This document shows positions 10,703 through 62,497 of a DNA stretch of 64,000 nt, piece by piece. Source of the DNA: Aurelia coerulea (Eukaryota > Cnidaria > Scyphozoa > Semaeostomeae > Ulmaridae); contig CM076951.1 in the NCBI GenBank assembly GCA_039566865.1, positions 12,347,484-12,411,483 on the forward strand, written 5' to 3'. The translations under genes were made by a program, and so were the position numbers. Numbering within the stretch: position 1 is the stretch's first letter; every line of letters starts with the position of its first letter. The notes under the pieces were generated by a model. It did not search any database. It had not been told where the DNA came from and was given only the letters and a program-made list of their open reading frames with translations.

Positions 10703-11050
10703 CCAGAATATGGAAGTCTATCTGCAAACAGATCTTACTTTCCAGAAATTCCCCTTACTGCATTCACTGCAACTGCACCAAAAACTTTCAGCAAACAGAT
10801 TGAATCATCATTGCAATTGGTTGCACCAAACATTGTTTCAAGGTCACCCAACAGACCACACATATTTTGCTGCAAGCAGACCAGGCTCCCAGATTTACAT
10901 GACAATCTGCTGATGCTATCATTGAGCCAATTGCTGTAGAGCTCAAAGAATTGAACACTGCCTTCCCATTAACATTGGTCTTTATGCCCTTCAAATGGTG
11001 TGGATATGCATTTAGGCTTTTGAGAGAATACTTGCTTAAAGTCAGAAGAC
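10703..11050 (+). pseudogene. RecQ-like DNA helicase fragment
   Basis: From 10703 the plus strand encodes [18 protein letters not shown], then AFTATA and SPNRPHIF. These match the RecQ pattern Y-x2-L-x2-L-R-x2-F-P-x-I-P, the A-x-T-A-T-A helicase motif III and the S-P-D-R-P-N-I segment that follows. After a frameshift near 10870 a second part (ELKELNTAFPLTLVFMPFKW, from about 10920) continues. It is truncated by the microsatellite at its 5' end and lacks Walker A, so it cannot be active. Its nearness to an rve-type transposase may be chance or may mean both came from one element. Confidence 0.6.
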
Positions 11051-11075
11051 TTTTGGACGGCAAAACTGTTGTTAC

Positions 11076-12093
11076 ATGCCAGTATTTGAATTCATGGCTC
11101 AGTCAAAAGAATTTGCACGCGAGCCTGAAAGTTGGCGGGATGACCAGGACCTTGCAAAAGATTTAAGAAAGTATGTTGGCTCGAGCATGAAACGAGCAGA
11201 AATACTGGACTTTATGAAGAGGGACTATCTCAGATACAGCTGGAGCATACCAACTCTTGATCGACGCTTGCAACATTTTGGCATTCGGTATGTCAACAAA
11301 GCTACTCCATTAGCGGAGGTCATCGATGCAGTGCAGGCAGAATTACAAGGTGGTGGGCAAAGGCTTGGATATCGAAGTATGAATCTGAAGTTGAGAAATG
11401 AACACAATATTTTTGTACCAAGGAAACTTGTGAGTGATATCATGTGGGATCTAGACCCCCAAGGAGTTGAAGCAAGGAAACTTCGTAAAAAGAAGAAGGG
11501 CGTGAAAAAACCTTTCACATGTGATCGCCCCAACTGGCTCTTCTCTTTGGATGGGCATGACAAAATGATGGGGTTTCAGAACAGTACGTCCCACTTGCCA
11601 TATATGGCTGCCTGGATACATTTTCTAGAAATATATTGCTCCTTCGTGTTTGGACTGGAAACTCTGATCCCCTTGTGGTTGGAAAGTTTATATCATGTAT
11701 CTAACTGAAGCCAAAATAATTCCAATTTATCTACGTGTTGATAAGAGGACTGAAACTGGTGTGATGGCTTCCATACACACATACCTCCGAAGTAAATGTG
11801 GAGACTTGCAAGATCCAACTGATGCTGTTATCTATGGTCCTTCCACATCAAATAAAATTGAACGTTGGTGGAGGGATCTTCACGAACGGATGGAGAAGGG
11901 CTTAAAATCATACTTGAACCAGCTGTTATCAAGATGCGTTTATGATCCACATAATGCCATGGATCGCAACATTTTGGCATATATATTCATCCCTGTGCTA
12001 AAAGGGAATGTGATGCTTTTGTTAGGTTGTGGAATTCACACCGGGTTAGACAACAAAAAGTTTTGGAACTTTCCACAGGCATACCAGACCTGA
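11076..12093 (+). pseudogene. IS3-like (rve) transposase pseudogene, relative of the 38.7-39.9 kb gene
   Basis: The first frame (11076-11708) encodes an N-terminal helical domain, then WLFSLDGHDK with the first catalytic Asp. The second frame (11695-12093) carries the other two positions: RVDKRTET (Asp) and GPSTSNKIERWWRDLHERM (Glu). Both motifs align well with the transposase at 38722-39924. Between the frames and after 12030 the reading frame breaks, so this copy is dead. No inverted ends like those of the 35.6-40.3 kb element were seen nearby. The family catalyses DDE strand transfer. Confidence 0.75.
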
Positions 12094-12731: not shown

Positions 12732-12859
12732 TATCGGTGGAAACTGAAATAGCTGATGCTGACATCAGCGGAATAGCTTTGTGGCTTGGATGCGCAGACT
12801 CTACTGGGTGAGAATTTTAAATTTTCCATTCAGCTCAATTCGATTTTGTATTAAACCAG

Positions 12860-14985: not shown

Positions 14986-15048
14986 CGATCCCAGAACAAA
15001 AGAGTCACGTGATGTTGTTGCAGCTGTGGGGATATCATTCCTTTCAAA

Positions 15049-16119
15049 ATGGCGACTTTCAACGAAGAAGGCATGGCCTTCCTGGAGGAAATTCGAAAGT
15101 ACGATTGTTTATACAATAGATTCAACAAAGATTTTAAGAACAAATTCAAAAAGTATAACTGCTGGATGAAGGTTGGTGAAAAATATGACATGACACCAGA
15201 AGACTGCGAGAAGAAATTCAGAAATCTAAGAACATCGTATGGGAGGATGCTGAGGAAGAGGAAATCAATTCCTTCTGGTTCTGGGCGAGAAGCAGTTACT
15301 GATGAAAACGTCAAACTTGACTGGCTCGCAAATACCATAATACACCGAAGAACAGTCACAAATTTTTCGCTAGAAGATGATACCATGATGAACGAAAGTG
15401 TCGAGGATGAAGAGTTGGATCAAGTTGTTGTTGATCAGCAAAGCCAAAACGATGAGGGCGATACACATACACCTACAGCAGATCAAAGTTTGACTGCAGT
15501 TGCTGAAGCTGAACGTGACGACGGCGAGGACGAGAAAGAACCCATCAAAAATGGTGCCGTGGAAAACTCAAAGTCAGAGAGTGAGAACACAAGCAAAGCC
15601 AAGCAAAAGAGGCTAACTGTGAAATTACAGAGCAGCTCAGCAGATTCATCGTCGTCGCAGAAAAAATCCTGGGCAGCTACAAAGAGTAAACCTTCAAAGT
15701 TGGAGATTGACTTGGCATTGATGCAGTCTGCAAAAAAAATTTCTGAAGTTTCTCAAGTGATCAAGGAAAGGGGTCCTGCAAATGCTGGCCATGGGATCAA
15801 TGATGATGAAGATAGTCTTTTTTGTCGTAGTTTGGTGCAGAGAATGCGAAGATTATCACAACATGGGAAGGCTTTCGTAAGATTTCAAATAGAACAAACT
15901 TTTTATCAGGCAGAAGTTGGAAATCAACAAGCGCAAACATTTCAGAGATTTGGCAGTCCTAATGGATCACATCTACCCACACACCAAAGTGTAACTCCGT
16001 TGCAAGTTCATACTTCATTTCCGTCATACAGAGGTCTCCTGGAATATGGAAATACACCAACTGGTTCAAGCAATGATGATTTCAGTGACAGTAGCTTAGC
16101 AAGTTCTGCTATGCAGTAA
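15049..16119 (+). CDS. MADF/BESS DNA-binding protein of Harbinger element
   Basis: The 356-residue intact frame starts with ATG in CAAAATGG, a good animal start context. Residues about 9-95 form a MADF (SANT-like) domain: FLEEIRKYDCLYNRF, then CWMKVGEKYDMTPEDCEKKF and NLRTSYGRMLRK. The middle is acidic and Ser/Lys-rich. Near residue 250, a BESS-like helix pair (DDEDSLFCRSLVQRM...) probably mediates protein contacts. In known Harbinger transposons the partner protein with such a domain binds the subterminal repeats and brings the transposase to DNA and the nucleus. It diverges from the transposase gene and lies 190 bp inside the left array. Confidence 0.88.
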   Translation: MATFNEEGMAFLEEIRKYDCLYNRFNKDFKNKFKKYNCWMKVGEKYDMTPEDCEKKFRNLRTSYGRMLRKRKSIPSGSGREAVTDENVKLDWLANTIIHRRTVTNFSLEDDTMMNESVEDEELDQVVVDQQSQNDEGDTHTPTADQSLTAVAEAERDDGEDEKEPIKNGAVENSKSESENTSKAKQKRLTVKLQSSSADSSSSQKKSWAATKSKPSKLEIDLALMQSAKKISEVSQVIKERGPANAGHGINDDEDSLFCRSLVQRMRRLSQHGKAFVRFQIEQTFYQAEVGNQQAQTFQRFGSPNGSHLPTHQSVTPLQVHTSFPSYRGLLEYGNTPTGSSNDDFSDSSLASSAMQ

Positions 16120-16846: not shown

Positions 16847-18825
16847 TTATTCATGTATCAGACCACAGTTTCTCACATATTTCAACTGCCAAGGTACCGC
16901 ACCAATGGGACTCATGAAAAATTGTTTGAAATTCTCCCTTGCTCTTTCGGCTTCAAAAGTGTATCGGTTGCCTCCAATTCTTTCATAATTAGCTAAACCG
17001 CTGCTATCGTCCTTCACAATACTCCTCCATGTTCCAAGAATTAGATTACCAGAATCATCTTCACAATCCACAAACCCTTCTGGTATATAGCTTGCATTTT
17101 CTGTAAGCCTCAAGTAGTTGTGGAGGCAAATACATGCCCTGATTATGTTGTCTACAAGTTTCACACTTCCTTTAATGGGGCGGCGAAAAATGCGCCACTT
17201 GGCTGACATTATACCAAATGAATTCTCAATTGTGCGCCTTGCCCTGGAAAGGCGATAGTTATAGATTCGTTGTGACTCTTCCAGTTTCTTGCCAGGGTAA
17301 GGTTTCAGCAACCAAGGTTTCAGGGGAAATATGTCATCCCCTATCAACACATATGGCAAATCGATTCCAGCATGGTCAGAGGCTTCAGGTATGCCCAGCT
17401 TTGTTGGAAGAGAGTTGAAAGCTTTTCCAAATTTTGAATTTGCAAATATTGCAGAATCATTTTCTGAACCAACAGATCCAATATCAACAAATGTGAAGCA
17501 ATACCTTGCACCACAAACTGCCATGAGTACAAGACTGTGGAAGTTCTTGTAATTGAATGTTGTAGATCCTGCATTATGAGGGCATTCAATCATTACATGT
17601 TTCCCATCAAGGGCACCAAGGCAGTTTGGGAAATTCCACTCATTTTCAAATTCTTTGGCTAAATCAATCAACTCATCTGTGTTTTTAGGATGAGAAACAT
17701 AAATTTCTTGCAAGGATTGCCAAACAGCACTACATGTTTCCCCTATTATCTTACAAACTGTAGACCTGCCAATTCTAAATGCAAAGGACAACGACTGCTG
17801 AGACTCTCCAGAAGCCAAGTAACGGATGGTTAACATTAGCCTTTCAGCAGCACCAACTGGTTCCCTAGCATTGCAATGCCTCTTTTGAAGCAGGGGTCCA
17901 ACACAACTGAGCAGGTGGTCAAACCTTTCAGGTGACATTCTTGCATATCTGAAAAAAATTGCCAGAATTTAATCTCAATTCACTGGTTCTGCCAACTCCT
18001 GGTAGTGCCTCAGGGGGGGGGGGGGTACTCTGGTTGATTCAGGATAGGGGTGCTCAGGTTACTTTTTTGGGTCTAAAATTTGGGCAAGGATTATTTTTTT
18101 GGGTCAACCATTTGTACAGTTATTTTTTTGGGTTCCTGAAATTCTGGCTTACTTTTTTGGGTCTCAAATGTGAAAAAAAGGAAAAAGATTGGGAAAAAGA
18201 TAGGAAAAATTATTTTTTTGGGTCTATTTTCACGGTAGAAATTATTTTTTTGGGTTGATGCATTGTACCTCAGCCTGAGCACCCCTATCCTAAATATAAC
18301 TGAGTACCCCCCCCCCCTAGGGGTAGTGCCCCCATTTTGGACACACGGAGCACGGCACCATGACAACTCAAGTTTTGAAAATTTAACTGCCAACAACAAT
18401 TATTCACAAAACTGTACAATTTTTTCATGGCAAACAACAGAACATCAAATAATTTTTCATTTACTACATTACTTCTGAAAATTTTGGGGGTACACTGATT
18501 TACCAAGGATCCCTAAAATCTTCATGCAGCCCTGCCCTGACGTTTTTAATGAAAGTATAATTAGTTGAATGGAATACATTGAACTAAAAATGCTGGAATA
18601 CAACACAAAATTTTAGGCCTACCTGAAAAAATTTTCTCTGTCATGCAATCGAAGTTCCTGCACTAAAGTGTGAAATATCCCATGCGTCTTTCGTTTTTTC
18701 AAAAATTTCCTGATCCAAAATCTTGGCTTCCTTCTTCCTTTTCGCTCTAAAACCCTGCGCATTAACGATAAAGTGAGGAAATTGCTAGCCAAGGCAAGAA
18801 AATCTGTTTCTAAAATTCCCGCCAT
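16847..18825 (-). CDS. PIF/Harbinger DDE transposase (two exons)
   Basis: Exon 1 is 18825-18623 and ends TTCAG|GTAGG. Exon 2 is 17948-16847 after TTTTTTTCAG. Joining them restores the family motif DRENFFRYARMSPERFDHLL. The DDE_Tnp_4 domain has Asp in ALDGKHV, Asp in FTFVDIGSVG and Glu in RRTIENSFGI. The N-terminal helix-turn-helix (GRSTVCKIIGE) precedes it. It would cut at the TIRs and insert at TWA sites, together with the MADF protein. About 434 residues, full length for the family, with no stop or shift. The intron of 674 bp contains a MITE (18010-18321). Confidence 0.9.
18010..18321. mobile_element. 312-bp MITE in transposase intron, 9-bp target duplication
   Basis: GGTAGTGCC occurs directly on both sides (18001-18009 and 18322-18330). 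The ends are inverted: a run of about 13 G then TACTC on the left, GAGTACCCCC on the right, followed inward by AGGATAGGGGTGCTCAGG and its inverse. Between them TTTTTTTGGGTC occurs six times in one orientation about every 30 bp. A 9-bp duplication suggests a Mutator-like (MULE) mobiliser. It lies wholly in the intron and leaves the splice sites intact. Confidence 0.75.
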
Positions 18826-31354: not shown

Positions 31355-31660
31355 CCTTACTGTACTGCCTGAAGTCAAGTGTTCCTCGGAACTTTACCAT
31401 AGCTTCATCAACGGCATTATCCTTGTGGGCTTTATAATTTTTCAGGCATTTCTTGTTAGTCATGTCAAAATAGTCATGTCCAAAATAGGCCGAATCAAAT
31501 AACGCTTGTCATGATCTGGATCCTCACGGTTGTACTGTGACCGATCATTTGCGTGCAGATATTGAGAAATTTTCTCAAACCTATCCCTGGTCATAACATC
31601 TCCAATTTTTAAAGCCAATTTTTGCAATGGTTCAAGCCTATCCGGAGGTGTTGATGGTAG
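31355..31660 (-). pseudogene. piggyBac transposase fragment (DDE_Tnp_1_7)
   Basis: On the minus strand the sequence encodes MTRDRFEKISQYLHANDRSQ, DKRYLIRPILD and then NKKCLKNYKAHKDNAVDEAM followed by VKFRGTLDFRQ. The order F-x-x-I-x-x-x-L-H-x-N-D ... L-x-K-I-R-P-x-L-D ... D-E-x-M-x-x-F-K-G-R-x-x-x-x-Q-Y is diagnostic for piggyBac/PGBD transposases, with the first catalytic Asp near RPILD. The frame shifts once near 31470. It is truncated at both sides and its 5' end meets the ZSWIM-like pseudogene at about 31640. Confidence 0.75.
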
Positions 31661-32945
31661 ATGCAACTTACAAACTGAATGATTTGCGCCTGCCTCTCTT
31701 CGTTTTGTTGGTCATCGATGATAATGGTGAAAGTGAAGTTTGTGGTCTTTTTTTAGTTACTGATGAAGGCCGAGAAACACTTAAGAAGATGTTCTCATTT
31801 TTCAAGAAACATAACCCTTCATGGGAGCAGACTAAATGCATAATGAGCGACAAAGACTTTACCGAAAGATCAATTTTGGCTGAGGAAACTCCTCGAGCAT
31901 CTCTTCAGATATGCCTGTACCACACCTTGCTTACTTTCGGGAGGGAAATAACAACTGAGAAGATGGGCATTACGCAAGGTCAGAGGAATTTGTGTTTAGT
32001 TTTTGCTTCAAAGAATGGCATATTCCCAGTCGAGAAAAGAGTACGATCTACTGTACCTCCAACTGCAGCATGTGGTCCCGAATAATGTGAGAGAATACTT
32101 TGATGAGCAGTGGCATTCAATCAAGGAAGAATGGGTGCAGTGTTTTAAGAATGAAAAGGAGAATTATCTGAACAGTACAAACAACCGCCTCGAGAGCATC
32201 AATCAGAAATTCAAGGCTGTGGTACAGAGATACTCCAGCATAACTGAATTTTTCAATAGATTGCAAAAATGCCTTGATTCATTATCAGATGAGCGAAATA
32301 AAAGAGCAACCAATCTTGTACAAAAGTGTCCTGTCTCCTATGAGAGTATGTCAAAAGAATACCTTCAGCATCTTACCCCTTATGCATTTGGATATGTCAA
32401 GCAACAACTTTACCTAAAAGCAAAGGTAAATCAATTTGAAAATCAAGGAAATGGAAGGTTTGCAGCTAATTCTACCCAAGGGATGATTTCTACAAGCACT
32501 ACCAACTGTGAATGTTGCTTTCACAGAGCAATGAGATTGCCATGCCGTCACATTTTTTGCACTGAGACTGGAGTTAGGGCTATCTTTATTCTGCCCTGAA
32601 CTATGTAATCCTCGTTGGGGTCGAAACTATTACCAGGAGAATCACTTGGCCTTCTTTCAGACAGCAGACACCATCGACACCAATGAAGTGGATCAAGGTT
32701 TTGTGACCGTGGGAGATGTAAAGCCAAAAAGAATTCTGTCTCAACATGAGAAGTACAGAAAAGCGTTTGATGTTGCAAAACAGCTTGCTTCTGTGTGCTC
32801 AGAAGTGAGCACTAGAGAATATCCAAGCTACTTAGGGGTCCTAGAAGATTTGTTAGACAGCTGGAGAATGGGTCAGCGTGTCTCCTTGAAACGATTTGAT
32901 GATAAGAATGATAGAAATGATGAAACCCCACAGCACATCAAATAA
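31640..32945 (+). pseudogene. ZSWIM3-like / MULE-derived transposase pseudogene
   Basis: Three plus-strand frames in order make one protein. 31627-32085 has MVDATYKLNDLRLPLFV (first Asp) and IMSDKDF (second Asp) with the C-x-Y-H helix. 32003-32599 has the Glu in STNNRLESINQKFK and the SWIM zinc finger NCECCFHRAMRLPCRH (C-x-C-x(n)-C-x-H). 32600-32945 has the family tail after another shift. At least two frameshifts are present. The family derives from MULE transposases; vertebrate ZSWIM3 is a domesticated relative. The start of the protein is missing where the piggyBac fragment begins. Confidence 0.7.
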
Positions 32946-38721: not shown

Positions 38722-39924
38722 TCAAGTAAATAAATTGTGTTTCAAGAAAAGATAAGAGTTCTTGGCATCTTTGCTTTGGATTTTCTCTGGATTGGGTATC
38801 TTTGCCCTTAAAGCCTGCTTTAATTCATCTTCAATGAATTCACTTTGTGCAGCCTCTATACCAGACAGCTCTGCAACCTCCACTAATTGCTCATTCAATA
38901 TGGGAATGCCCATGCTCTCAGCCCCATATCTCTCTGGAAATGAAAACATATGATTTGGAATTCCAGTTGGCAGCTCCAAATCTTTCTGTCCTCTTATTCT
39001 ATGATTGTTCCACATGTCTACAAAAATGTTACACTCTCTTTGCATTATTGGCACATACACATAAGCCATGATCTTTCTGTGTAAATAATTGTGTGGATCA
39101 TATTCTTGTTCCTGTAGCAATTCTTTCAGCTGAGTTTTGAAAAACTTTTCTAATCGCTCATGGAGGTCTCTCCACCATCTCTCTATCTTATTGGATGTTG
39201 ATGGGCCATATGCTATTGAATCAAATGGATCTTCAAAAATGTCATTCTGGGACATTAAGTATGTGTGGATGGTAGCCATTTTGCCAGTTTCTGTCCCCTT
39301 GTCCATTCTTAAGAACCTTGGAGCCATTTTCATTTTGTGCAACAATTCTGTATATAATTGACCTATGACCAATGGGTCTGAATTTGAGACTACCACAGAC
39401 AAGGCAAGGATTTTTCTGGAGAAGGTGTCAATGAAACCATACACCCCCAAAGGAAATGTCCAGTTCTGGTAACCACACAGTTTGTCATGACCATCAACTG
39501 AAACAACCTACATTGATCCTTTAGAAGTGAAGTGTGTCTTCTCTCGCTTCCTCTTTTTCTGGAGACTCCTTTTGGCAACACCCTCTGGATCAATGTCTGA
39601 AAGAATATTGTTGACTAAATGCCTTGGAACCTTTATGTCATGATGCACTCTTAGTTTTTGAGACATGGCTCTGTAACCAAGGAGCTGTCCAGGGCCATCA
39701 AGCTCAGCTCTAATTGCACATTGGACATCTTCTACGTCGACAGTTTCATCAATGTAATGTATTCCAAAATGGCGCATACGCCTGTCCAAAGTTGGGAGAC
39801 TCCATTTATAACTGGTGTAGTCACGCTGCAAAAAATCCAACATCTCTGCTCTTTTGATATTCTGACAAACATAATTTTTCATGTCTTCAGCAAGATCGTA
39901 ATCATTTTTCCAACCCACTTCCAT
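38722..39924 (-). CDS. IS3-like (rve/DDE) transposase of the alpha-kinase transposon
   Basis: From ATG at 39924 the frame of 400 codons is continuous except for one TAG at 39508-39510. The related copy at 11.5 kb has Trp there, so TGG to TAG is the likely change. An N-terminal helical domain (residues 1-120, with WSLPTLDRRMRHFGIHY) is followed by the integrase core: Asp in VSVDGHDKL, Asp in LRMDKGTETG, Glu in GPSTSNKIERWWRDL. The D to E gap is 40 residues. The tail is acidic. It would cut at the 268-bp TIRs. It starts 72 bp inside the right TIR. Confidence 0.85.
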
Positions 39925-40264
39925 CGTTATGGCAGATGGTGTTCAAGATCATGCTTCACAGAAAAAGCGAAGAGAAAGGAATTGAGATAAAAGTGGAGGA
40001 CATTTTGGCGGGAACATGTAGCCTCGTTTTCGCTCTGATAATGATAACGATGAGCCACGCGTGAAGATTGAAAAACAATAAAAGTAATAAAAAATAAATT
40101 ACGGCAACAATAAAAGGAATTTTGAAATACAACTTTTTTGTTATAAATTTTATTTTAACAGTTTTTTGTAAAAATTTCATTAAATAAATTTTATTCTGTT
40201 GTGAAATATAATTATTTTCAATGCAATAACATGAAAAGATGGATGATAACGATGGGCCACCATA

Positions 40265-41332
40265 GAAATGAAACAAGCTATCAAACGATTTTAAACAGAA
40301 GCTTTTATCACTCAACAATGCTATTAATTTGTATTGGCAAAAATTTTCGCTTCAGATCACCTTCAAACCCAGTGAAATTTCAAATCCCTTGTAAGACTCG
40401 ACTTTAAATCTCTAAGCTCTTGTCAATGATAATAAAATTGACGTTTCATGGCATATCTGTCAAAACATACCACCATTTGAGAGCAACGTTAACATGAGCG
40501 TGGCCCTTCTTAACTCTGACTCTACCCCTCAAAGATGCCGGACGTAGCACATTTTAGGAGGGGCGAAGCTGCAAATTTGACGGAAAAACAATAGGAAGAT
40601 AAAACTTCGGCCATTTTCGAGGGGGCAAGAGGGGCAGTCACCCTCGCCCTTCTCTCCGGCACAGCTGTGCTTAGATCCTAAGAGCTGCTCAGCTATGCTT
40701 TTGGGTCACATTTTGTTTCAATAAATACCATTTGCAACCAAATATGGAATCTTATATTTACTAGCCTGATAACCAGACCCAAGGCTAATATTTACTGGTT
40801 GAGTAAAAAAGTGAACAAATCTTTGAAAACTCTAATGCAAAACCCGTCCAACCAAGTCATAAAATCTAAAAACTCTTAGTTTAAATTAGGCCTCGACTTA
40901 ACTTTTTGACATTCCCTTTATAACTGTGCGTTTTACGGCTGTTCAATCTGATCAAGATTCTGAAAAGTAATTGTCTTCTTGGTATCTAGCATCAAGTAGA
41001 GAGCGAGATAACTGTTTACAGTTTCCTATTGCATTTTACCAATCAATCAAAAGTTGAAAAACGAGTTAAAGGGAAACATTTTCGGCAACGAAACTTTCCT
41101 GATTTACGAACTTAGTTTTGCCCCAAGATATGTGCTCAATACTATGAGGTAAGGGGGTGGTCTTTACTTCCTCTAGGGGAGGGGATGAAAGACATCTGGA
41201 AGGGGAAACACACAAAAAACCAATTTCGATGGGGGGTATGAAAATAATCGGAAATAAATCCTATCGAATTCCGAAAAAACATATACTGAAGCTCTTCTCT
41301 TTTCTAAGGTAAACCCTATTCATTGCTGATAC
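40265..41332. other. no gene; one possible MITE
   Basis: A segment near 40536-40672 begins with GCCGGACGTAGCAC and ends CTCTCCGGCACAG after G-rich and C-rich stretches, resembling a hAT-type MITE. Its target duplication was not found. The rest is AT-rich without support for coding. Confidence 0.35.
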
Positions 41333-41334
41333 TA

Positions 41335-42518
41335 CCGGGTGCGCCAAAATAAACTATGGGTCATTCCATATAATTTGAACAAAGGCATGTCAAGTCATGT
41401 TCGAGAAACCCACTCAAATTTGTTTCATGTAATTGGAAGGAACTTGCATGAATTTTCCTGTTAAAACAGCAAAAGCAAATTAACTACAAATGATACTCTT
41501 GTGCTACCATGCTATTAGAAGTCAGAATAAAATAAATAAAAAATTCCATGAGCTTCCACTTGAAAAAAGATTAGGTATCAAAATGGCACAAACTTGTATG
41601 TTTGTGCAATTTTAGCGGATTTGAAAAATATGTTACAAATTTTGGTATGAATAATTCCAAATTGCTTCGTCACTCGTTAATGTAAACAAGTTGAAGTTTG
41701 CCTAGACCGAATATTTTTAATTGAATCCACTTGCTAGTCAGTGAATTTGCCTTTTGAAAGTAGCTCAGACACCAAAATGGCCGATATGGGGCATGTTCAG
41801 TGGCTGCAAAATGTACCGGTCAGTAATGTCAGAGTCTTGAGAATTTTACAACCAGTAGTCTACTCTGTTTCCTTCTGCTGAGAAGATTTCATGCTTCAAA
41901 TGGAATTTCAAGGCAGTAATTGAAATATTTTTGCTATGCACGTTTGGCAGGCCATGATAAATCATACACTGGACCAATTTTGAAGATTTATGACTTAATC
42001 TCTAGCAGAAAGCCTGAATTAGATTCTAGGACTTTTTGCAAATTTTTCCGTTCTCTGTTTTTAGAGCTAGAAGCGAGTTGTTTTAATGTTCGTTTTCGAA
42101 ATCATTGAAAAAGATAAAGGAAACTTCGATCAAATTTTAAAAGATTCAACATGAATGAACAAAGAGAAAACGTTTCAGGAGGATTTGGGGGTTTAGTACA
42201 AACTCTAGTATAGCATATTACAATTGGTCGATTTCTAAATCCTAAATCACCGCAAACAAGTTCTCTCTTTGTCCATTCATGTCGATCATTTAGAAAACTT
42301 GATCGATGTTTCTCGATCGTTTTCAGTGTTTTCGAAAACTAAGATTTTAGGAAACTCACTTCTAGCTCTAAAAATTGAAAATGATAAAATTTGCAAAAAA
42401 AACCCTGTATTTAATTCAGGCTTTCTGCTAACGATTAAGTCATAAATCATCAAAATCGATCGAGTGTACGATTCATTGTGGCCTGCCAAACGCACATAGT
42501 TTATTTTGGCGCACCCAG
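41335..42518. mobile_element. TA-flanked TIR element with internal inverted copies
   Basis: Ends CYGGGTGCGCCAAAATAAACT are inverted and flanked by TA (41333-41334, 42519-42520). Within it, about 41938-42130 and 42290-42497 are inverted copies of each other (about 190 bp, with short peptide frames on opposite strands as a result). 1184 bp, no transposase. Same end style as 3399, 21542 and 34991, but with GCGCC in place of GTCCC. Confidence 0.75.
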
Positions 42519-42520
42519 TA

Positions 42521-43320
42521 GTCATTGTTGCAGTAATTCTAAAAATACAAGTTCTTGCTCAACACCACTGTTCGGTGATCTTTTCTCACCCACGTAAAGT
42601 GGCATTGCTGTTCATGTAAACATCTGCGATGAGTATTGGGAGGAAGGGCTGAAAACTTTCTCGTCTGTAGCAAGGGGTCAAAAGTTTTATAACAGAGAGG
42701 GGATCAAATTCCGTAAAATATCTAAAAATGTCTTCCACCCTCTCCCCCGCAAGAACTGATGACCTGTCCCTTATCTTGAAGGTTTGCTTCCAAAGCATTT
42801 AACCAAACAGCATTAAATTACCATTGTTTATGATGATCACAAAAGATAAAACCAAGTTTAAAATTTTTAATAAAATCTGTAAGCATCTCAAATAGAAATG
42901 CTGATTCCAGTCAGTGGAATCTTCCAAGCCAACAACTCGGAGAATTCTAGTACTTTTCAGTGATAATATCTACGTCCTACACTACCTTAATACACCAAAT
43001 TAGCATGGGTATTAATTTAACGCAGTGAAAATCTAAATTTAAGCCATCATGAATTAAAGCGAATGCTGAAGCTAGCTTCTCAAGTGTGCTATAATGAACG
43101 CAAGTTAAGGTGGTTTTATAAATCAACATACAAATTGTCCATTCGCGTAAATTATTGCACCGTGCTAATTTAGTGTGATAAGATATATCCGAATGAAATG
43201 GTGGCACAAGCCCCACTTTGCAACCAACATAATTCATAATATTGTTAAAATATCAAGATCCTCAAAAATGATTTCAATGCAACATACCTCGGATGTCATA
43301 GGGATTCTGTCAAGTACACA
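42521..43320. other. 3' flank of the kinase-transposase gene; no separate gene
   Basis: AT-rich sequence downstream (minus strand) of the kinase-transposase frame. I looked for a long inverted repeat matching 47.4-48.9 kb and did not find one. The short frames here have no support. Confidence 0.4.
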
Positions 43321-43326
43321 AAATTC

Positions 43327-46300
43327 TCACATGTTCAGCTGAAAGTTTTTTCTCAAAAGTTCCCTGTGAGCATCTTCTAAGCGATGTACTACTGACTGAA
43401 AGTCGATATCCGATCCAGAAAACCCAACATTTTCTCCGTTGTTTCCGCGCCGCACACATTGCAAGTTAGGGTGGTAATATCTGCAGCTCTTCTTCTCAAA
43501 AACCTTTAGAACGCCATTCGGTAGCCTCTTTGAACCCTGTTCTAAATGGCTAAGAATCAGGTTATTTGGTGCACTGTATGGTTTCCCGTTAACAAGACGA
43601 GGGAATTTTACACCACATCCCGCGCACACAACCACTCTTGGATGATCATCTAAGAATGTGACCAGGAAATCTTTACTTCTCGGCTGCACCGCTATATGGA
43701 TTCCATTTTGCTTCAAAATCTTGACCTTTAGAGGGGGGTTGATGACTTCTTGAGCTTCTGTGATGGTTTCGACGACGTTCAATCTTCGCTTTCTTCCTGG
43801 CCCTGCCTTTTTGCCCTTTCCAGGAGCAATTTCATGAAGGGCTAGATCTGTGATATTGTTTTGACCCTTCTTTTTTGCAAACTTCTGAATGAGACATTGG
43901 TACTCTCCAGCATGTTTCGCTGCGGCAACAACGTGCGCACATATTTTATCTTTCTTGAATGCCAAGCAGCCATTTCTTGGATCATCTGGGTCACATTTAA
44001 ATTCACCAGCTCCTGTACGTTTTACAAAGTGAGGTGCAGCATCTTGCGAAGAGCCTATTACATGAAAGCATCCGGTGCCAAATGATGGCATTATGTGACC
44101 TTTGGTCATAATCTGTGAGGCCTTTTGGAGGAGGAAAAAGGAGTGCTTGAGTGTCAAGCCAGGTATCTGCAAATGTCCATCCAGGATTGAATTTTGTTGA
44201 TTTCCTTTAACTCTGCATGCTTGGACTTTACAGACCTCTCCAACTTCTTGGTTGTAGAATGCTTTTTCAAAAGAAAGTTTCTTTTCTTTATCAAGCAGAA
44301 TGTACTCTTCACCAATCTGAAATTCTTCGAAGCTCGCAGATAACTGCACATCGCTCTCACCGATAAATGAAGATCTGATGATTTCTTCTTGATCTGCATA
44401 AAATTCCTTCATCTGACTGAGAAACTCGGTGAGTCCAGATGCTTGGTAATTCAATTTCCTCTTCAAAGCGGCGTTGATACTTTCACTAGCGTTGGTGCTG
44501 AATATTCCAGGGATGCCATTTCTTTCTCTTATTTCTTTCAGCATGCCTTCCCTCATGTAATTTGCAATATTACATGAGAACCATTGGTGAAACATAGGCT
44601 GCTTACAAGATGCTCCCCTGTAAGGCATTTCCATTTCATTCCATTTCTCTTCGAGAGACGATAAGATGGCCTCAAATGTCTCCTTATCTCTGCTATCACA
44701 GAGGCCTTCTTGGTGATGAGCACCTGTTTTCTTGCCATAGATCTCATCAATGAAGGCATCTGCGACATCTGTTGGTAGATATGAGACGAGGTGACTTTTG
44801 ACATTTCTTTTGCTGTGGATAAAGCACCTCAAGCCATCTGCAAAAGGCCAAGTCTTCTCACACGCAGAAACGAGGGGGGTTTCTCCATCTGTCCATTTCT
44901 CCATTTCTCCATTCCTACAAGTGCTGTTGTGAAATAATGGTATGTTGTGAATCGCTTGCGATAGTGAATCAATGCTGGGCCCATCTGCAACTTATTCTCC
45001 CCAGTTTTCTGGTCAACCAGTGCCAAATTTCTGTATGTGGTTGGCGTGAATGCAAACTCTCCTAAATCAAACGTAGGGTCAATCGTGAGGGTGGAATGAA
45101 GCCCTTGGGGGGCATTACAACAGAACCTCTCCACATCCCGAAAGCAATTTTCAGTTCCTATAATACACATAGGTTCTGGAGCACATTCTACTCTCCAAAT
45201 TAAGGCTTTCTGTGGATTATTCATGGTCATCTTGCATTGCAGCATCATATCTGCAAGTGTATCCTTTGCATCTCCGAAAGTATTGCCACTCTTGGCAATT
45301 TTGCTTCTGTGATTGTTGAACTTGAAATTTTCAGCCTGCTTAATGTTGCGAGGAAGCATTGCCAATGAACTGGAAGAGAGGTAGCCACCCTCATTTCTTC
45401 TCACATCTTTCATTGCGTTGGTTGGTTTGCTGAACGCTACTGCTTCCTTGATACTTTCTCTGATGCTTTGTGCCGTTTGCTTGCATGGAAGCCCTTTTCT
45501 AGAGTTACCATGAGATGACACTTCAAACTCGTGCTCTGTTTCGTCAAAGGTGTATTGTAGAATTGCATACTGATAGTACCTTAAAGACTCATGGCGCTTC
45601 AGTCTCAAAATGCATCTGTGAAAATCTTGTGATGATGTACAAATGCCATTGTATTTAGTCAAAATGAATTTCTCTTCTCCAGCTTGTGCATCTCGGTTGA
45701 CAGTCGAAGCCTGTATGTTGTCCACCACATCATCATAACTATTGAAATATATATAGTTTGGTCTTCCCTGTCCTGACTTGTAGGAACCATTGTCGTCAGC
45801 TGTTATATCCCCTTGGCTGCTAAGGGCATTTAAGTTGACAATGAAGGCAAGATTGTTTTGCACTCTTGGGGGTACAGCCTCACAGATAATTTTTGGATCA
45901 ATATTTGGACTCAGAAGGATTTTTGCAGCTTCTTCTGGAGTGTAAGTGGTTTTCCTCCCAACCTCAAAAACAGGAAAGTTACGGTAGTATTCTTGGGGGT
46001 TTTTGGATGGTGAAGGACTTTCATTGAAACAGGTTAATTCCTGATGGATACCTGCTGAGGAAATGGTTGCATTCTGGCCCTTGTGCTTATTGGTTCCGGT
46101 CATCCCATGTGTTTCAGAGTCATTTGTTCTTGCAAATGATTGTTGATGATCAAGGTCAGATTGCAATTTTCGGATTATCCCTTGTTCAAAATCAAAATCA
46201 CTTGCATAGCTCTTTCCAAATTCTGATGTGATTGCATTATTTCCATCAATGGCTTCATGTTGTGTTTCCCCAGTCAGTAATGCAGCATTTTCTTCTGGAT

Positions 46301-47345
46301 AATCTGCAGTTTCACGGCCTCCACAATCTTGTCTTTCAAAAAGGACTAATAATTCACTGCTTGTTGGACGATCTTCAGGGTCAAACTTCAGGCATAAGTC
46401 CTTTATCTCACAAAGCAGCTGCCAGCTTTTACTTCTAAATTCCATGTATGTTCCTCCAACGGAGGGCAGCTTTTGCATACCCATTTGCTGCTTTAAAAAC
46501 TGCTCAAGGTTAGGATTAGTTTTGAGCTCCAGTTGAAATGGAAAGGACAACTCTGGGTTGGAGATGCAAAAATATACCATCCCAAGGCTCCAAATATCTG
46601 CTGCATACAGATCTTCTTGATTGGCTGCACCAATTTTCCCCAACAGTAGCTCGGGAGCCATAAACAACAATGTGCCCCGGCCAATATCATTTGTCCTTGT
46701 ATGCAAAATACTTCTTGTTTGATTCTGATTAGATCTACTTTCACCAAAATCCACCAATTTACAATGAACTGGGTCAGCTTCGATTATGTGCATGTTAGCA
46801 TTCACATCATCAAAACCCACATAGTGATTGTTGCAAACCAAAACATTAAGGGTCTTCAGATCACGATGAGCGATTCCATGGAGATGCAAGTAATTCACAG
46901 CATTTGCCAACTCTTTGCCAATGAAGACTGGCATGTTTTCAAACCCAACCAAGTCAAAATCTTCATGTAAAACATTGAGAAAGTCCTTCAAGGAACTGAC
47001 TTGTTTTTCTAAGCCAAATGGACTGAAGCAGAAAAATACATATTCCATCATTATAGCCATTGGCTTTTCACAGATTCCAAGAAAACGTGCAACATGGTTT
47101 GATTGTAATTGCTGAAGAAACTTTGCTTCCTTGATAAACAGTCTTCTTCCCTCACTTTGTTGATCTAACAGTTTCTTGATCACAACAGTTTTGCCTTTGA
47201 AATGTGCAGTCATAACTGTTCCAAAAGCCCCTTCACCAAGCACATCTTTGTCACTCAGGTCAGACCACTTGAATTCTTTTTCTAGTAAACATTCTGGGAT
47301 GCTCCTTTTGACTGGACATTTTGGAAGTGGAAACTTGAACTCCAT
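43327..47345 (-). CDS. protein kinase fused to MULE transposase with SWIM zinc finger, one frameshift
   Basis: One minus-strand frame of about 1,330 residues, numbered from ATG at 47345. A TTTTATAG acceptor at about 47366 leaves an upstream exon possible. Residues about 30-330 are a complete TKL-like protein kinase: LGEGAFGTV, VVIKK, HRDLKTLN, KLVDFGES, MAPELL, DIWSLGM. A Ser/Asn-rich linker follows. The MULE transposase then gives LTIDPTFDLGEFAFTPTTY (first Asp), KRFTTYHYFTTALVG, TDGE (second Asp), LRCFIHSKRNVKSHL, and NASESINAALKRK (Glu). A SWIM-like finger (FKCDP...GCLAFKKDKICAHVV) and a Cys/His-bearing tail end it. The only break is at about 44904-44915, where ATGGAGAA is tandemly duplicated (+8). 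Kinase and transposase parts are in one frame before the break, so the fusion is real in the DNA. Confidence 0.85.
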
Positions 47346-47447
47346 TGGCAATAGATTTAGGTGCCTATAAAATAACGTTGAAAATATCACAAAATCAAAA
47401 CTTCAACAAAACTCTATGCTTGTTGGACTCACACATGAATGCAACCT

Positions 47448-47750
47448 CCTGTACAAAAATACAAGGCTAAACTTGGCCTTGTACAGGCCAAGTTTTAGCC
47501 TTGTAGAGGGGATTATGACCTTGTTATGACCTTGTAATAACCTTGGAAGAAAATTACAAGGCTATCAGTAAGATTCCAAGCTGCAACCAGTCTAACACAA
47601 GGTTTCCACAAGGCTTCTACAAGGCTAATTAGCATTTTTCAAGCCATTTACAAGGTTACAGCAACGCTATTCCAGGCTATAACAAGGTTACAAGGCCATA
47701 ACTACAAGGCTTGTGCATGGCTATTACATGGCCTTGTATTTTCGTACAGG
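47448..47750. mobile_element. MITE rich in ACAAGGCT motifs
   Basis: CCTGTACAAAAATACAAGGC and its inverse (GCCTTGTATTTTCGTACAGG) close a 303-bp element. Inside, ACAAGGCT or its inverse AGCCTTGT recurs more than a dozen times. No clear target duplication. It lies about 100 bp upstream of the kinase-transposase exon. Confidence 0.65.
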
Positions 47751-47886
47751 CTGCACCAAAGCATAAATTTGATAAAACTTCAAAAGGAAATACATTTATT
47801 TGCATCATTAAAAGTATTTTTACAGTGCATTCCTTCCAACTTAGAATGAACACTAGTGCATTGGATCATAACTGATGAATTTCTAC

Positions 47887-47930
47887 TGGGTGTCCCAAAA
47901 AAAGGGCCAGCGTTTCATTGAACGCAGATT
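47887..47930 (+). mobile_element. lone terminus of a TA-flanked TIR element
   Basis: TACTGGGTGTCCCAAAAAAA starts here, the same end type as 21542-22513. No partner in inverse orientation was found before 49 kb. A second lone end in the same orientation, TACAGGGTGTCCTGAAAAAC, is at 48851. Both are probably truncated copies. Confidence 0.5.
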
Positions 47931-48182
47931 CATTCCAGGTACATGCTCAACATTTCAACTTACAGTTTGGCATATGGTATAGGAAGAAATCAGTTATCTG
48001 CAGATGCTATAACATTGGATCTTGATATTGAAAGGCAAAACCAGAGATTTGTGTACGCCTTCCTGCATCATCGTGGTGGAGGGGGGATTTCCAACTAGGT
48101 TTGCACTTTCTTTCATTGCCTTGATGACACATGCAAGAGTTCCGTTCATTTAGCATATTTGAAGTAAGGTCTGAACAGAAAT

Positions 48183-48250
48183 GCATTATTGCATAATACT
48201 AAAATGCATTATTGTGTAATACTAAAATGCATTATTGCATAATATGGCAT
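48183..48250. repeat. 23-bp tandem repeat, about 2.8 copies
   Basis: Unit AAAATGCATTATTGCATAATACT. The core ATTATTGCATAAT is nearly palindromic and octamer-like. A short local duplication only. Confidence 0.85.
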
Positions 48251-49860
48251 TTTGAAAAAGCAATTGAAACTATTCTTTAGTTAAGAAAAAGACAGTTTAT
48301 TCTACTCCGTGCCGTGAAACAGTAAAATTCCCATCTAAAATTCCCAGTTGGTACAAGGCAACAATAACAGCAGCAAACAGTTTTCCCAAGACCTATTTGT
48401 TACAATTCCTTACACAATAGGGTAGTAATTCCAACAATCAAAACAAACTTAAATCTAAATTCTATTCAATTATACAAAGCAACATTTTCTCAGTAGTTCA
48501 ATTTGGTGCACTTGGTATTTTGTTTGTTTTTTTATCAAGTTTATTAATAGTGACTAAACTCTCAATTTGGGTGAGAGTACACATTGTTGTAAACAATGAT
48601 TTGCCATAGGCAACAATATGAATTGATTTTGTCAATGACAAAAACCATGGAGGTGTTTTGTTCCTAACCCCCAACCCCATCACACAGAGCTAAAACTGTA
48701 TATTCTACTGTAGCTTACAAAGACATACTGTACAGTACAAACAAGTTTCTTGTTCACCAGTTTGCTCCAAAGTTTTGTCTTCACTTGCAGATACAATTTT
48801 TCTCATTACTTGTGTCAAAATGATTTGGCCCAAGAGTCCCATTAAAAATACAGGGTGTCCTGAAAAACATGTGCACCGTTTGAGAAGCTACTGTGAGGAG
48901 CCATGAATCTAATTTTCCCGTGTTATAGACTTCAACTAAGAGTTATGTAGGCAAGTTGAGTAAATCTGACAAGTAGCTGCTGATTTATGGGGCAAGGTAG
49001 TCAACATTACTGGTTGCCTCAAAACCAGACAATCTTATCTCGGTGCTTAAGCTTATAACTTGAATTTTGGCTCCAAATGGACCTTAATATGTACATTTTT
49101 ACCAGGAAACACATTTGGGAGTAATAAATGAACAAACAGCTCAAGAAATATTGACTAGGAAACTGTTGGAAGCAATATTGTTGGTTCAAATGGATTCTAT
49201 GATTTTGGAGAAGCAAAATAATTGAATACCATGGGTGCCAGAGCCAAAACATTTAAATTCTTTCTACCAAATATTGCAAACTTTAACAAGATGAAAGTTA
49301 TTGCATATTCAATTCAATTTAGATCTAATAACTGATGGAATCATGGCTTTTGCTGCATATAACCATTTCTGGCAACCAACAATATGTCTTTTCCCCTCAT
49401 TTTTCAGAAACAAGGCCCTTGACGAGATCAGAAAAGTTGGGGGGGGGGGGGGCATTGATACAAAAAATTACCAGAGCACAACATGGAGCTGCCTTTCAGA
49501 ACGGTATGATTTGCAAAAAAGTGGGAGGGGGACATGCCCCCCCCCCCGGCCCTCTGTCGTCGGAGGCCCTGAGAAAATCTAATCTAGCATTACCAAATTC
49601 ATTTATGGAAAAGCTACAAAACCGGGCTGGATCTGTTTTATCCCTCAATTTCTTTGTTTTGGACATTGATGGAGAATATTGAATCCATTTTGGTTTGAGG
49701 CATAACCAGTAATTCTGACTTTTGTGCTTCAAAAATCAGCAACCACTTATACCAAATTTAAGCAAGCAAGGTCTCAAACTCCAAGAAGAAATCTCCTCTA
49801 TTGACAATTTCTAAAAGTAAGAAAATCGGATTTATGGTGGTCTGCTGAAGGGCAACCCTC
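48251..49860. other. no gene identified; G/C-run pair
   Basis: 49437-49452 is a run of G and 49538-49549 a run of C, as at MITE ends, but TTAA or inverted CCCTAT ends are absent. GAAGGGCAACCCTCC at 49846-49860 matches the LINE 3' end at 62840. Short frames here are unsupported. Confidence 0.35.
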
Positions 49861-49872
49861 CTTAAAGAATCA

Positions 49873-50640
49873 TATACACTCATTTTTTTTATACGAAACT
49901 GCTTACGGTAGGCTCAATTTTTAGAAAGTTAAGAAAAGACCCTACCTGGATTTAAAAAGCTAAGAAACTTTGTAATTTACAGTTTTAGTTTTCCTATCGC
50001 ATTCAAAAATGTTATAGCACTGTACAGTTAGAGCAACTGTTTGGACATAATTTTGAGTGCGAATTAAGTTATTGACTTGTTTTGAGATCTACTAGTAAGT
50101 AATTTCAGAGCCCTTGACACAAAACAAGATTAACTTTACATTTCTGGCATTAAAAACATAAGAAACACGTAAGAAACTTTTGGTAGCAAAGTGGCCCAAA
50201 AATTTAAGATTCTGCCTACCAGCCCAGGACCTTAGTTTCTCATCAAAAAAATGAGTGTACACATTTTTTTCATAAGAAACTGGCCACGAGAAACTCAACT
50301 CCCAGATCACCAAAAAAAAAACAAACTCTAGTACTGGGAAAATATAAGTTAAGAAACTAGTTATTTTGATAAAGGAAATCCTTGAGATATTTTTACCCTA
50401 CTTTCACTTGTTTCCTGTATCATATTACTTGTAAGGACCGAGATATGTCTAAACATTGGAAAGCCTTTAAAACCTTGTTTTGAAATGTTCATGAGGGAAC
50501 AGAAGTTGTGAACATGAAGATTGTTATGGAACCTTTAAAAAAACTCATAAGAAACTCAATTTCTCAAAAATCTGATAATTTTAAGAAACTTTAAGTACTG
50601 GCCCAAATTCTTAGTTTCTTATAAAAAAATGTGTGTATGA
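49873..50640. mobile_element. pair of adjacent AAGAAACT-type MITEs
   Basis: TACACTCATTTTTTTTATAC at 49873, a back-to-back junction at about 50235-50275 (CAAAAAAATGAGTGTACACA then TTTTTTTCATAAGAAACT) and an inverse end at about 50615-50640 define two neighbouring elements. AAGAAACT recurs throughout in both directions. Same family as 53430-53850 and related to 52160-52480. Confidence 0.5.
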
Positions 50641-59137: not shown

Positions 59138-59662
59138 ACGTCAATACAGTCAAATTCGCATCTATAAGTCAAATCACTGTGGACCAAGAAAACTATGTAC
59201 TCTGATGCAAATGAAAAGGGAAAAGTGGATGGGACTTTCAGGATTGCCCAATGTTCTCTGACTCATGCGAATATCTGACTTATGCGAGTCTGACTTACAC
59301 GAGTTTGACTGTCTAGCAAAAATATCAGAAAAACATCAAAAATAAGAAGTTGTGCGTTATTTCTGGAAAGGTCCATCACAGGTAGTGAGTATCATGGATG
59401 GTATATTAATTATGGTGTTATAACTGTTAGTTAGAATCACAGGAAGAGTTGAGATACCTTTGTTTTTTTGTGTTTCCTACCCAAACTGTACTCCAATTCT
59501 AACAGTACTTTCCAGGCCAGTCAATCCCCAATTACTTTGTTTTCTTCATTGTGTTTCCTTCCAAACTGCACTCCAACGCAAACTTTGCTGCCTATGCCAG
59601 TCCTTCCTCATGCAACAGAATTTCAAACCTGACCCAGTCCCCATATAGGCTACAAAAAAGGC

Positions 59663-62497
59663 ATGGCAATTGCATCCCTGAATGTTAACGGTCTACGTAG
59701 TCACCTAGATGAGGTTCAGTTACTGATAAATAATTTAGGGATACATATTCTTGCCTTGAATGAGACTAAGCTTGATCCTAATTACCCAAAAGAGTTGACT
59801 AGCATTGCAGGCTACCAGCAAGAATGCTTGGAAAGGACTTGCAATGGTGGTGGAGTCTCTATCTATATTAGAGACTCTATCAAATACAAACCTCGTTCTG
59901 ATGTCCCAGTTGATGACTTAGAAATCATATGCATTGAAGTGGAACCTCCTAAAAGTAAGTCCTTTCTCGTTCTTGCCTGGTACAGACCACCAAGTGACCC
60001 TGTTGCCTCTTTTGATAAGCTGGAAAAGGTTCTTTCTTTCGTGGACAAAGAGGGTAAAGAAATAATTTTCCTAGGAGACACAAACTGTGATCTCACTCCA
60101 AAACAAGCTGAACAGCCTATAGACAACAACTCAAAGCACATGCTTGATCTCTATGAGTTGTTCAGCTTCAAACAGCTTGTTGAGGAGCCAACTAGGGTCA
60201 CTCTAACAACTTCCTCTATTATTGATCATATTGCTACAACATGTGCCAGAAACATTGTAAAATCAGGGGTACATGAAGTTTCCATGAGTGATCATTATAT
60301 GGTTTACTGCATTCGTAAATTCAATGGTGCAGTAGAAAAAGACCATAAAATGATGTAAACCCGCAAAATGAAAAATTTCAATGAGGATGCATTTTTGGCA
60401 GATGTCTCTGGCATATGCTGGGAGCAAATGCTTACTGAAACAGATGACATCAATACTCTTGTCAATAATTGGTCGAACCTATTTTCCTTGATCATAGACA
60501 AACATGCTCAAATAACTGAAATGCGTGTTTCAGAGAAATACTGCCCATGGATAGATAAAGACCTTAGGGACCTTATGCAGACTAGGGATAAGTTAAGAAA
60601 GGCTGCTTCCAAAAGAAAATCCCAATTTCTTATGGATTCATATAGGCAGGTCTGCAACAAGGTCAATTCTAGGAATATTCAGTTGAAGAAGCAATATTTC
60701 ACTGATAAGATCTCTGCATGCCAAGGCAACATGAAAGAATCTTGGAAGGCAGTTAATGAACTTCTCAATGAGAGATCAAAGTCCAGTAACATCAGGTGTC
60801 TCAAAGTGGCTGGCAATGAAACTGTTCATAAAAAAGGCATTTCAGATGCTATGAACAATTTATTTTGCTCTATAGGCAAGGAACTAGCAGACAAAATTGA
60901 TCCTGTCCCCAACCCTCTTCTTACAGGTGAATATGAAGTCAATGCAAATAAGGCTAAGTTTAACTTCAAGACCATTGAAGTAAAAGAGATCAGGGCTGCA
61001 TTTGCCAAGATTAAAACTGCAAAGAGCTTTGGGATTGACAATATCTCTAGCTACTTTGTGAAACTGGCCTTACCTTTCATTGAAAACTCTCTTGCTTTCT
61101 TGTTTAACACTTCCATTGAAACTAGCCAGTTCCCGGATTCATGGAAAGTAGCTAGAGTTACTCCGATTTTCAAAGATGGAGACAAGACTGAAAAATCAAA
61201 CTACCGTCCGATATCAGTCTTACCCTTTATCTCAAGGCTCTTTGAAAAACTTGTTTTTGACCAGCTGTATCAGTATATGAAAGAAAATGGTCTCTTCTCC
61301 CCTGATCAATCTGGTTTTCTGAGGCTTCATTCTACACTTACGTGTTTGCTCAAAAATACTGATGACTGGTACAATGGCTTGGACCTTGGACGGCTTGTGG
61401 GATTAGTGTTCATTGATTTGAAAAAGGCTTTTGATACTGTTGATCATGACATCCTCTGTGAAAAACTTCAAATTTATGGTGTTCAGCAGCGAGAGCTGTC
61501 TTGGTTTAGGTCATACCTATCCAACCGTAAACAATTCTGCAGGGTTAATGGTGTTGCCTCAGACATAGGGGATGTAGAAGTCGGTGTGCCACAAGGCTCA
61601 TGTCTCGGCCCTCTTCTCTTCCTCATCTATATCAATGACCTTCCACTGGCCGTCCAGGGTTCAACTGTGTCCATGTATGCTGACGACACCAGTTTGTGTC
61701 ACCAGGCATTGAATATGACTCAGCTGAATGGTGCTATTAACAATGATCTTAGGCGATTGGATACATGGCTTCAAGGCAATAAACTTTCTTTGAATGTTGC
61801 AAAAACACACGCCATGCTTATTACTACCAGGCAAAAACGTAACGTTCTCAAAAGTACAAATCAGAATTTGGAATTGAACATACCTGACAATGAGCTTGAC
61901 GTTGTTCAAAAAACAAAATACCTTGGTGTCCAAATTGATTTCTCTTTAGATTGGAAAGAGCAAATAAAGGCTGTCTCTGCCAAGGTCTCAAGGGCCATCG
62001 GCTTTTTAAAGCATGCCAAGAAGTTTCTACCAAGGGAAACTCTTGAGAATCTTTACACAGGTATTGTTGAGCCACACTTTCGATACTGTTGTTCTGTTTG
62101 GGGTTGTTGTGGTTCTAGTGAAATCAAGCAGCTACAGAAGCTTCAAAACCGAGCTGCCAGGATTGTTACGAATAGCAGCTTTGACTCCCCAAGCAGGCCA
62201 CTTATCGAAAGGCTGGGCTGGAAGACCATTGAACAACTCATCAGTAATGAGTCAAAAACAATGGTCTTCAAGTCACTCAATGACCTGGCTCCGCAATACT
62301 TGAAAAGCCTTTTCAAAAGAAATTCACAATGCTCCACCCGTTGCCTTCGAAATACCGAGACTGACCTGAGGGTACCAAAGAAAACATCTGCAAATGGGCA
62401 GAAATGTTTCTCTTTTAGGGGTGCAAAATTGTGGAATAGCCTTTCAGCTGAGTGAAAGCAGGCATCCTCTCTTAATAGCTTCAAAACATCTATTTAG
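59663..62497 (+). pseudogene. LINE ORF2: AP endonuclease and reverse transcriptase
   Basis: From ATG at 59663 the APE endonuclease has SLNVNGLRSH, LNETKLD, WYRPPS, LGDTNCDL, SIIDHI and MSDHYMV. A TAA at 60356-60358 breaks the frame; the same frame resumes at once and has an ATG at 60368. The RT follows: NYRPISVLPFISRLFEKL, FIDLKKAFDTVDHDILCEKL, GVPQGSCLGPLLFLIYINDL, MYADDTSL (catalytic). The C-terminal domain has RYCCSVWGCC and LQKLQNRAARIV. A TGA at 62453-62455 comes 14 codons before the TAG at 62495 that ends the family-typical LNSFKTSI tail. It would nick target DNA and reverse-transcribe its own RNA; this copy needs two reversions. Confidence 0.88.

Follow-up and report, generated by a model that had tools for sequence, protein, structure and literature searches.

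The minus strand of the window, by which we mean the whole 64-kb stretch of DNA analysed here, carries at 43330-47345 an intronless coding sequence in which a protein kinase is continued into a MULE-type transposase. There is a single break in the frame and the stop codon lies at 43327-43329. The sequence is spread over two overlapping open reading frames, 44829-47402 (857 codons, stop to stop) and 43327-44991 (554 codons), and the start ATG of a close relative, protein P0001, maps to 47345. The first-pass annotation had placed the kinase in frame with the MULE part and this was confirmed: one uninterrupted frame in the raw DNA leads from the kinase through the linker to beyond the first catalytic Asp of the transposase. 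The kinase-MULE fusion is genuine and far beyond chance. Flanking the gene, directly 5' of the kinase ATG, is a MITE-like fold-back repeat (47448-47750, unstranded) with 20-nt ends that are 95% complementary and with TACAAGGC sub-repeats inside; the hairpin of 47430-47760 has a z value of -6.76.

The kinase domain (46347-47252, minus strand) is defined by a Pfam match of ORF 44829-47402 to Pkinase (E 6.8e-31) and by 19 signature positions. The window holds the complete set of eukaryotic protein kinase catalytic motifs, which read GEGAFGTV, VVIKK, KEAKF, HRDLKTLN, DFGESR, APE and DIWSLG, and the G-loop, HRD and DFG elements earlier described as intact do keep all their signature residues. On alignment, the 19 positions are identical in all six domains that are covered from the G-loop onwards. 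P0020, in which the N-lobe is not alignable, shows F in the column of the alpha-C Glu, and P0002 enters the alignment with the last three signature positions only. Comparison with solved structures placed generic kinases on top (EGFR, LIMK1, CTR1, IRE1 and ULK) among the best 60 of 881 matches, and these 60 did not name a host origin for the domain.

A weakly conserved linker follows (45996-46346, minus strand), with 16-26% identity to the corresponding regions of P0002-P0004. Between P0001 and P0003, identity amounts to 40% in the kinase, 16% in the linker, 48% in the N-terminal MULE part, 61% in the DDE core and 48% at the C terminus, so that the kinase, to judge from its 40% against the 16% of the linker, has been retained next to a drifting sequence.

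On the same strand, the N-terminal part of the MULE region and the beginning of its DDE domain occupy 44910-45995, the first Asp (in DPTF) being encoded at 45078-45080. After the frame break at 44893-44909, the remainder (43330-44892) contributes the second Asp (in TDGE) at 44887-44889, a CxxH from 44826 and the Glu (in SESIN) at 44482-44484. All three catalytic residues that had been assigned to the DDE domain beforehand were thus found; in P0001 they are Asp 756, Asp 825 and Glu 960, with the CxxH at 846-849. A CxxH placed between the second Asp and the Glu is a criterion by which MULE transposases are recognised. Of the 17 MULE-bearing proteins collected, 12 were aligned (alignment A4), and all 12 have Asp, Asp, CxxH and Glu without variation. 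Pfam matches of MULE type are weak and fall short of the curated cut-offs, both in the window and in the relatives scanned: Transposase_mut (PF00872) matches ORF 43327-44991 with E 2.6e-4 and 20.4 bits, just under its cut-off of 21, and in the relatives the best PF10551 match is that of P0006 (E 3.6e-5, 24.6 bits), each matching relative falling below the cut-off of 27.6.

SWIM-type zinc fingers are common, though not universal, in MULE transposases. The SWIM finger previously assigned to this protein survives as a variant, CDPDDPRNGC...CAH, which a pattern search located at 43933-43995 (minus strand), but the Pfam SWIM profile itself has no match in the window at E<=1. Among the relatives scanned, the profile matched P0006 (E 0.0018) and, marginally, P0020 (E 0.97), both under cut-off. 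Nearer the C terminus, a putative zinc-binding CxxC...YYHPxxxC (43456-43626, minus strand; pattern search, the motif being assigned by inspection) is common to the window and to relatives without a kinase.

P0001 (1344 aa, source eukprot) is annotated 'Seg6924.1 ... GoldUCD ... Serine/threonine-protein kinas', a style of naming ('Seg6924.1 ... GoldUCD') that we take to be that of an Aurelia genome, and is approximately 99% identical to the window copy. Its residues 1-812 align to 47345-44910 with 805/812 identical, and its residues 824-1344 to 44892-43330 with 515/521 identical, in both cases without an intron. Residues 813-823 are missing from the window, and P0003 has matching residues there. 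Instead of these 11 residues the window has 17 nt of repeat-like sequence, and the frame is shifted just before the second catalytic Asp. The break had been attributed to an 8-bp tandem duplication only; the 8-bp repeat is indeed present, but 11 residues have also gone and 17 nt stand in their place. P0001, which keeps the missing DDE residues, is an intact relative of the window copy, and the break may reflect a rearrangement local to this copy or a fault of the assembly. Since the DDE domain lacks 11 residues and then runs out of frame, the window copy is probably unable to transpose; translation of its 5' part might still yield a protein of kinase and linker.

In the 1333 residues compared, the window and P0001 differ at 13, none of which is among the 19 kinase signature positions. 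Changes specific to the window occur at 621 and 715, both positions being kept by all other rows of alignment A1, and changes specific to P0001 occur at 233, 1294 and 1309, positions at which one or more relatives have the window's residue. Changes in both of these close copies, although the numbers are small, would fit drifting copies of an element better than one guarded host gene.

The fusion is not confined to these two copies. A query made of the linker and MULE parts matched 14 proteins, four of them with a kinase: P0001 (99% identity over 95% of the query), P0002 (54% over 73%), P0003 (49% over 74%) and P0004 (45% over 77%). When the MULE part of P0003 was used, in a search that scored only the 7998 candidates with most shared words, six proteins were recovered, including P0003 itself, and the kinase bearers were the same four. 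The kinase query gave 14 matches, six of which (P0001, P0003 and P0017-P0020) had E values of 1.5e-226 to 2.9e-42, the other eight being generic kinases at E 9.6e-5 or worse. The kinase of P0004 has a Pfam E value of 1.7e-24, yet was missed by this query; the searches are therefore not exhaustive, and the gap to the generic kinases rests on an incomplete search. Beyond P0001, the linker-MULE, P0003-MULE and kinase queries returned no close relative.

In all, kinase and MULE are found in one protein in five cases, P0001-P0004 and P0019, of which P0001 is nearly the same as the window copy. P0003 (1416 aa; longest contig 8653 bases) has the kinase followed by the MULE part as in the window, P0002 is partial, with the C-lobe of the kinase only, and P0004 is partial and ends within the DDE domain. 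P0019 (1324 aa) bears the source tag 'lgn', presumably Logan, and its MULE match (E 1.9e-4) is under cut-off. Most of the relatives are unnamed predicted proteins rather than cDNAs. Checked against other proteins, the kinase-MULE junction recurs in divergent relatives, and this recurrence contradicts the possibility, raised at the outset, that kinase and MULE share a protein in no other genome. For P0005, whose sequence begins within the MULE part, the absence of a kinase says little; P0006, which has no kinase, begins by eye near the start of the MULE region. The sea anemone Actinostola (Cnidaria) contributes P0020, with a kinase, a protease-like domain and the marginal SWIM match given above, and Pfam found no MULE domain in its gene model. 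This model (Actinostola sp., QZH41_005805) also extends far at the C terminus, where Pfam gave no strong match and host exons may have been fused to it. Neither P0017 nor P0018 gave a MULE match, and both end shortly after the protease-like domain.

The protease-like domain follows the kinase in P0002 and P0017-P0020, at the site of the linker, and the window has no such domain. It contains a Cys and an Asp-Thr-His, and resembles viral tegument-like deubiquitinases (VTD). C31, D170, T171 and H172 are invariant in all five pieces (alignment A2). Herpes_teg_N of Pfam matched two of the five, with a best E of 0.017, and a PDB profile search with the domain yielded one match, which was unrelated (E 0.91). 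Solved VTD structures are reported (PMC9741609), and that the PDB search matched none of them counts against a close relation. UFSP2 and ATG4 are likewise described as using D-x-H, so that the motif is not unique to VTD. The protease-like domain is likely to be a VTD. For a remnant of it in the window, the best tblastn match (E 0.18 at 11851-12087) is not credible. Of the MULE-tree members P0001-P0004, P0002 has the VTD-like domain and the other three, by eye (alignment A3), do not, and the distribution would fit repeated loss.

Phylogenetic analysis placed the seven element kinases in one clade (support 97/96). P0002 was left out of this tree, whose eight outgroup rows, five of them distinct, were all weak matches from the kinase query; the tree program issued a warning about long branches. 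The 17-row MULE tree groups P0001-P0004 in a single clade (100/98), which P0005 adjoins (100/100). P0019 is remote from them, at the tip of a very long branch, and two changes of the kinase label are required; the tree consequently does not give the MULE-kinase pairing a single origin.

Long terminal inverted repeats (TIRs) with a target duplication of 8-11 bp are a criterion for MULE DNA transposons. Long TIRs had been anticipated around the element, but the flanks contain none above shuffled controls. This was assessed through local alignment of the flanks, compared with alignments in which one side was shuffled in blocks of two bases. The inner flanks (42523-43329 and 47346-47890) gave a score of 20, as high a score being reached in 174 of 200 shuffles, and the wider flanks (40501-43329 and 47346-50500) a score of 29, reached in 26 of 60. 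Nor could the expected target duplications be placed around the element. Two candidate TIR pairs were rejected: that of 42525-42551 with 47733-47759 (27 nt, 70%) runs into the fold-back repeat, and that of 42501-42526 with 47878-47903 points outward, its members being, by inspection, ends of separate MITE-like repeats. MULE groups without TIRs are also listed in the Mutator survey (PMC6446971). Comparison of 42500-48500 with the whole window revealed no second copy. Pattern searches for related DNA in viral contigs gave no match with one pattern and 65 matches with another, none of them confirmed; in genome contigs there were 37 matches, again with none confirmed.

Relics of other transposable elements abound in the window: DDE and MADF genes of Harbinger type, a MULE of ZSWIM1/3 type, a gene with an integrase core and a reverse transcriptase of LINE type. 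A PIF/Harbinger-type pair consists of a MADF/BESS gene (15013-16116, plus strand) adjoining a DDE_Tnp_4 transposase (16850-17968, minus strand). The second MULE relic, of ZSWIM1/3 type (31597-32942, plus strand), continues across overlapping frames; the profile scan matched ZSWIM1-3_RNaseH-like (E 3.8e-32) and MULE (E 1.3e-19) in 31597-32082. The integrase-core gene (rva_4, E 5.8e-20) is at 38725-39507 on the minus strand, and ORF 11040-11705 (plus strand), by eye like ORF 39511-39942, has a weak HTH_21 match (E 0.0042), below cut-off. The LINE-type relic (59633-62452, plus strand) has, by eye, an endonuclease-like ORF followed by the reverse transcriptase (RVT_1, E 1.5e-32). At 41331-42522 lies a MITE-like element, bounded by inverted repeats of 28 nt (96%) and enclosing a further inverted repeat of 114 nt; the motif ACTGGGTG near one of its ends is seen again at 12803, 21541 and 47885.

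In our view the locus is probably a degenerate copy from a Mutator-like (MULE) lineage of DNA transposons whose transposase protein carries a functional kinase. Since several distant relatives have kept the same kinase, it seems to be a working component of the element and not a chance addition, and a kinase that serves the transposon would fit the conserved catalytic residues. The abundance of other transposon relics nearby also speaks for this reading; the lack of TIRs above shuffled controls and of a placed target duplication, the sub-cut-off Pfam matches of MULE type and the outlying position of P0019 on the MULE tree speak against it. The kinase would have joined the element long ago and been retained for helping transposition. 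As every transposase molecule carries the kinase, it would act where the transposase sits, the most likely substrates being that same transposase or host proteins of DNA repair, of chromatin or of the ubiquitin pathway. Where a VTD-like domain is present, removal of ubiquitin might protect the complex from ubiquitin-dependent removal, as the authors of PMC9741609 suggest for the VTDs of Helitrons. A bolder version, to which we would give not quite an even chance, is that the lineage, at least in the sea anemone-type source and probably in jellyfish, combines its own kinase, a viral tegument-like deubiquitinase and a MULE transposase in one polyprotein, with an element-specific family of kinases acting in cis to control the stability of the transposase or the chromatin at target sites, the protease having been lost repeatedly and the kinase kept.

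The kinase motifs are intact in the window copy while its DDE domain is broken, the flanks show no TIR, and P0001 is the sole close relative in the linker-MULE, P0003-MULE and kinase queries. These observations would suit a domesticated host gene, that is, a MULE-derived kinase and DNA-binding factor in which the transposase part binds DNA and the kinase acts on chromatin. Nevertheless, domestication seems unlikely and is not favoured here: module content varies among divergent relatives, P0001 keeps the residues that the DDE-broken window copy has lost, both of these close copies are altered at conserved positions, and none of the 12 aligned proteins has lost Asp, Asp, CxxH or Glu.

A kinase captured passively as a host fragment, in the style of Pack-MULEs and with no role in transposition, is conceivable in that MULEs acquire fragments of host genes (PMC6446971), but appears improbable given that all six domains, at roughly 36-43% identity and next to a drifting linker, keep their catalytic residues, and given the single clade of element kinases. 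Less probable still are two adjacent genes or an artefact of assembly or gene modelling. In gene models, kinase is one of the domains found most often together with transposable element domains (PMC12062965), and the frame break could be an assembly error; on the other hand, the raw DNA frame is uninterrupted over the kinase, linker and MULE part to beyond the first Asp, and P0003, P0002, P0004 and P0019 have the same domain order, a recurrence by which this explanation appears largely refuted.

Transposons are known to carry enzymes that modify DNA or chromatin and enzymes that handle ubiquitin. Should the kinase of the MULE lineage described here prove active, a cut-and-paste element would have phosphorylation signalling within its own machinery. 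The recurrence of a kinase with a tegument-like protease also bears on the trade in accessory enzymes between transposons and viruses. In the literature searched by title and opening of the abstract, a scope outside which Repbase lay, no transposase with a built-in protein kinase is described. The word 'kinase' is absent from the main texts of PMC13359780 and PMC6431247; fusions of kinase and reverse transcriptase are reported in PMC12062965, in the main text of which 'MULE' does not occur.

Like the element described here, MULE/MuDR elements have a DDE transposase, a SWIM-type finger in many groups, and accessory domains. The additions listed in the Mutator survey include SWIM, FLYWCH, SET, FAR1, the Ovarian Tumour gene and others, the Ghost sub-group Cnidaria and the cnidarian MuDR-6_HM being tabulated with 'Ovarian Tumour Gene' (PMC6446971). 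Unlike the surveyed MULEs, the present transposase protein starts with a kinase, a word absent from the main text of that survey. The VTD-bearing Helitrons (PMC9741609) resemble P0002 and P0017-P0020 in that a transposon protein carries a protease with Cys and Asp-x-His, and cnidarian VTDs fused to transposon-associated domains are reported there; neither 'kinase' nor 'MULE' appears in the main text. In comparison with those Helitrons, a MULE transposase takes the place of RepHel and a kinase is added, and the window copy has no VTD-like domain. Fungal DNA transposons with a TET/JBP dioxygenase (PMC12730594) also bear a host-modifying enzyme, although the enzyme is another one and, in the present case, is built into the transposase protein. 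Finally, SETMAR and CSB-PGBD3 (PMC8704517, PMC3459987) also join an enzyme or cellular domain to a transposase, but these are single host genes, whereas the present fusion recurs in a divergent, element-like family.
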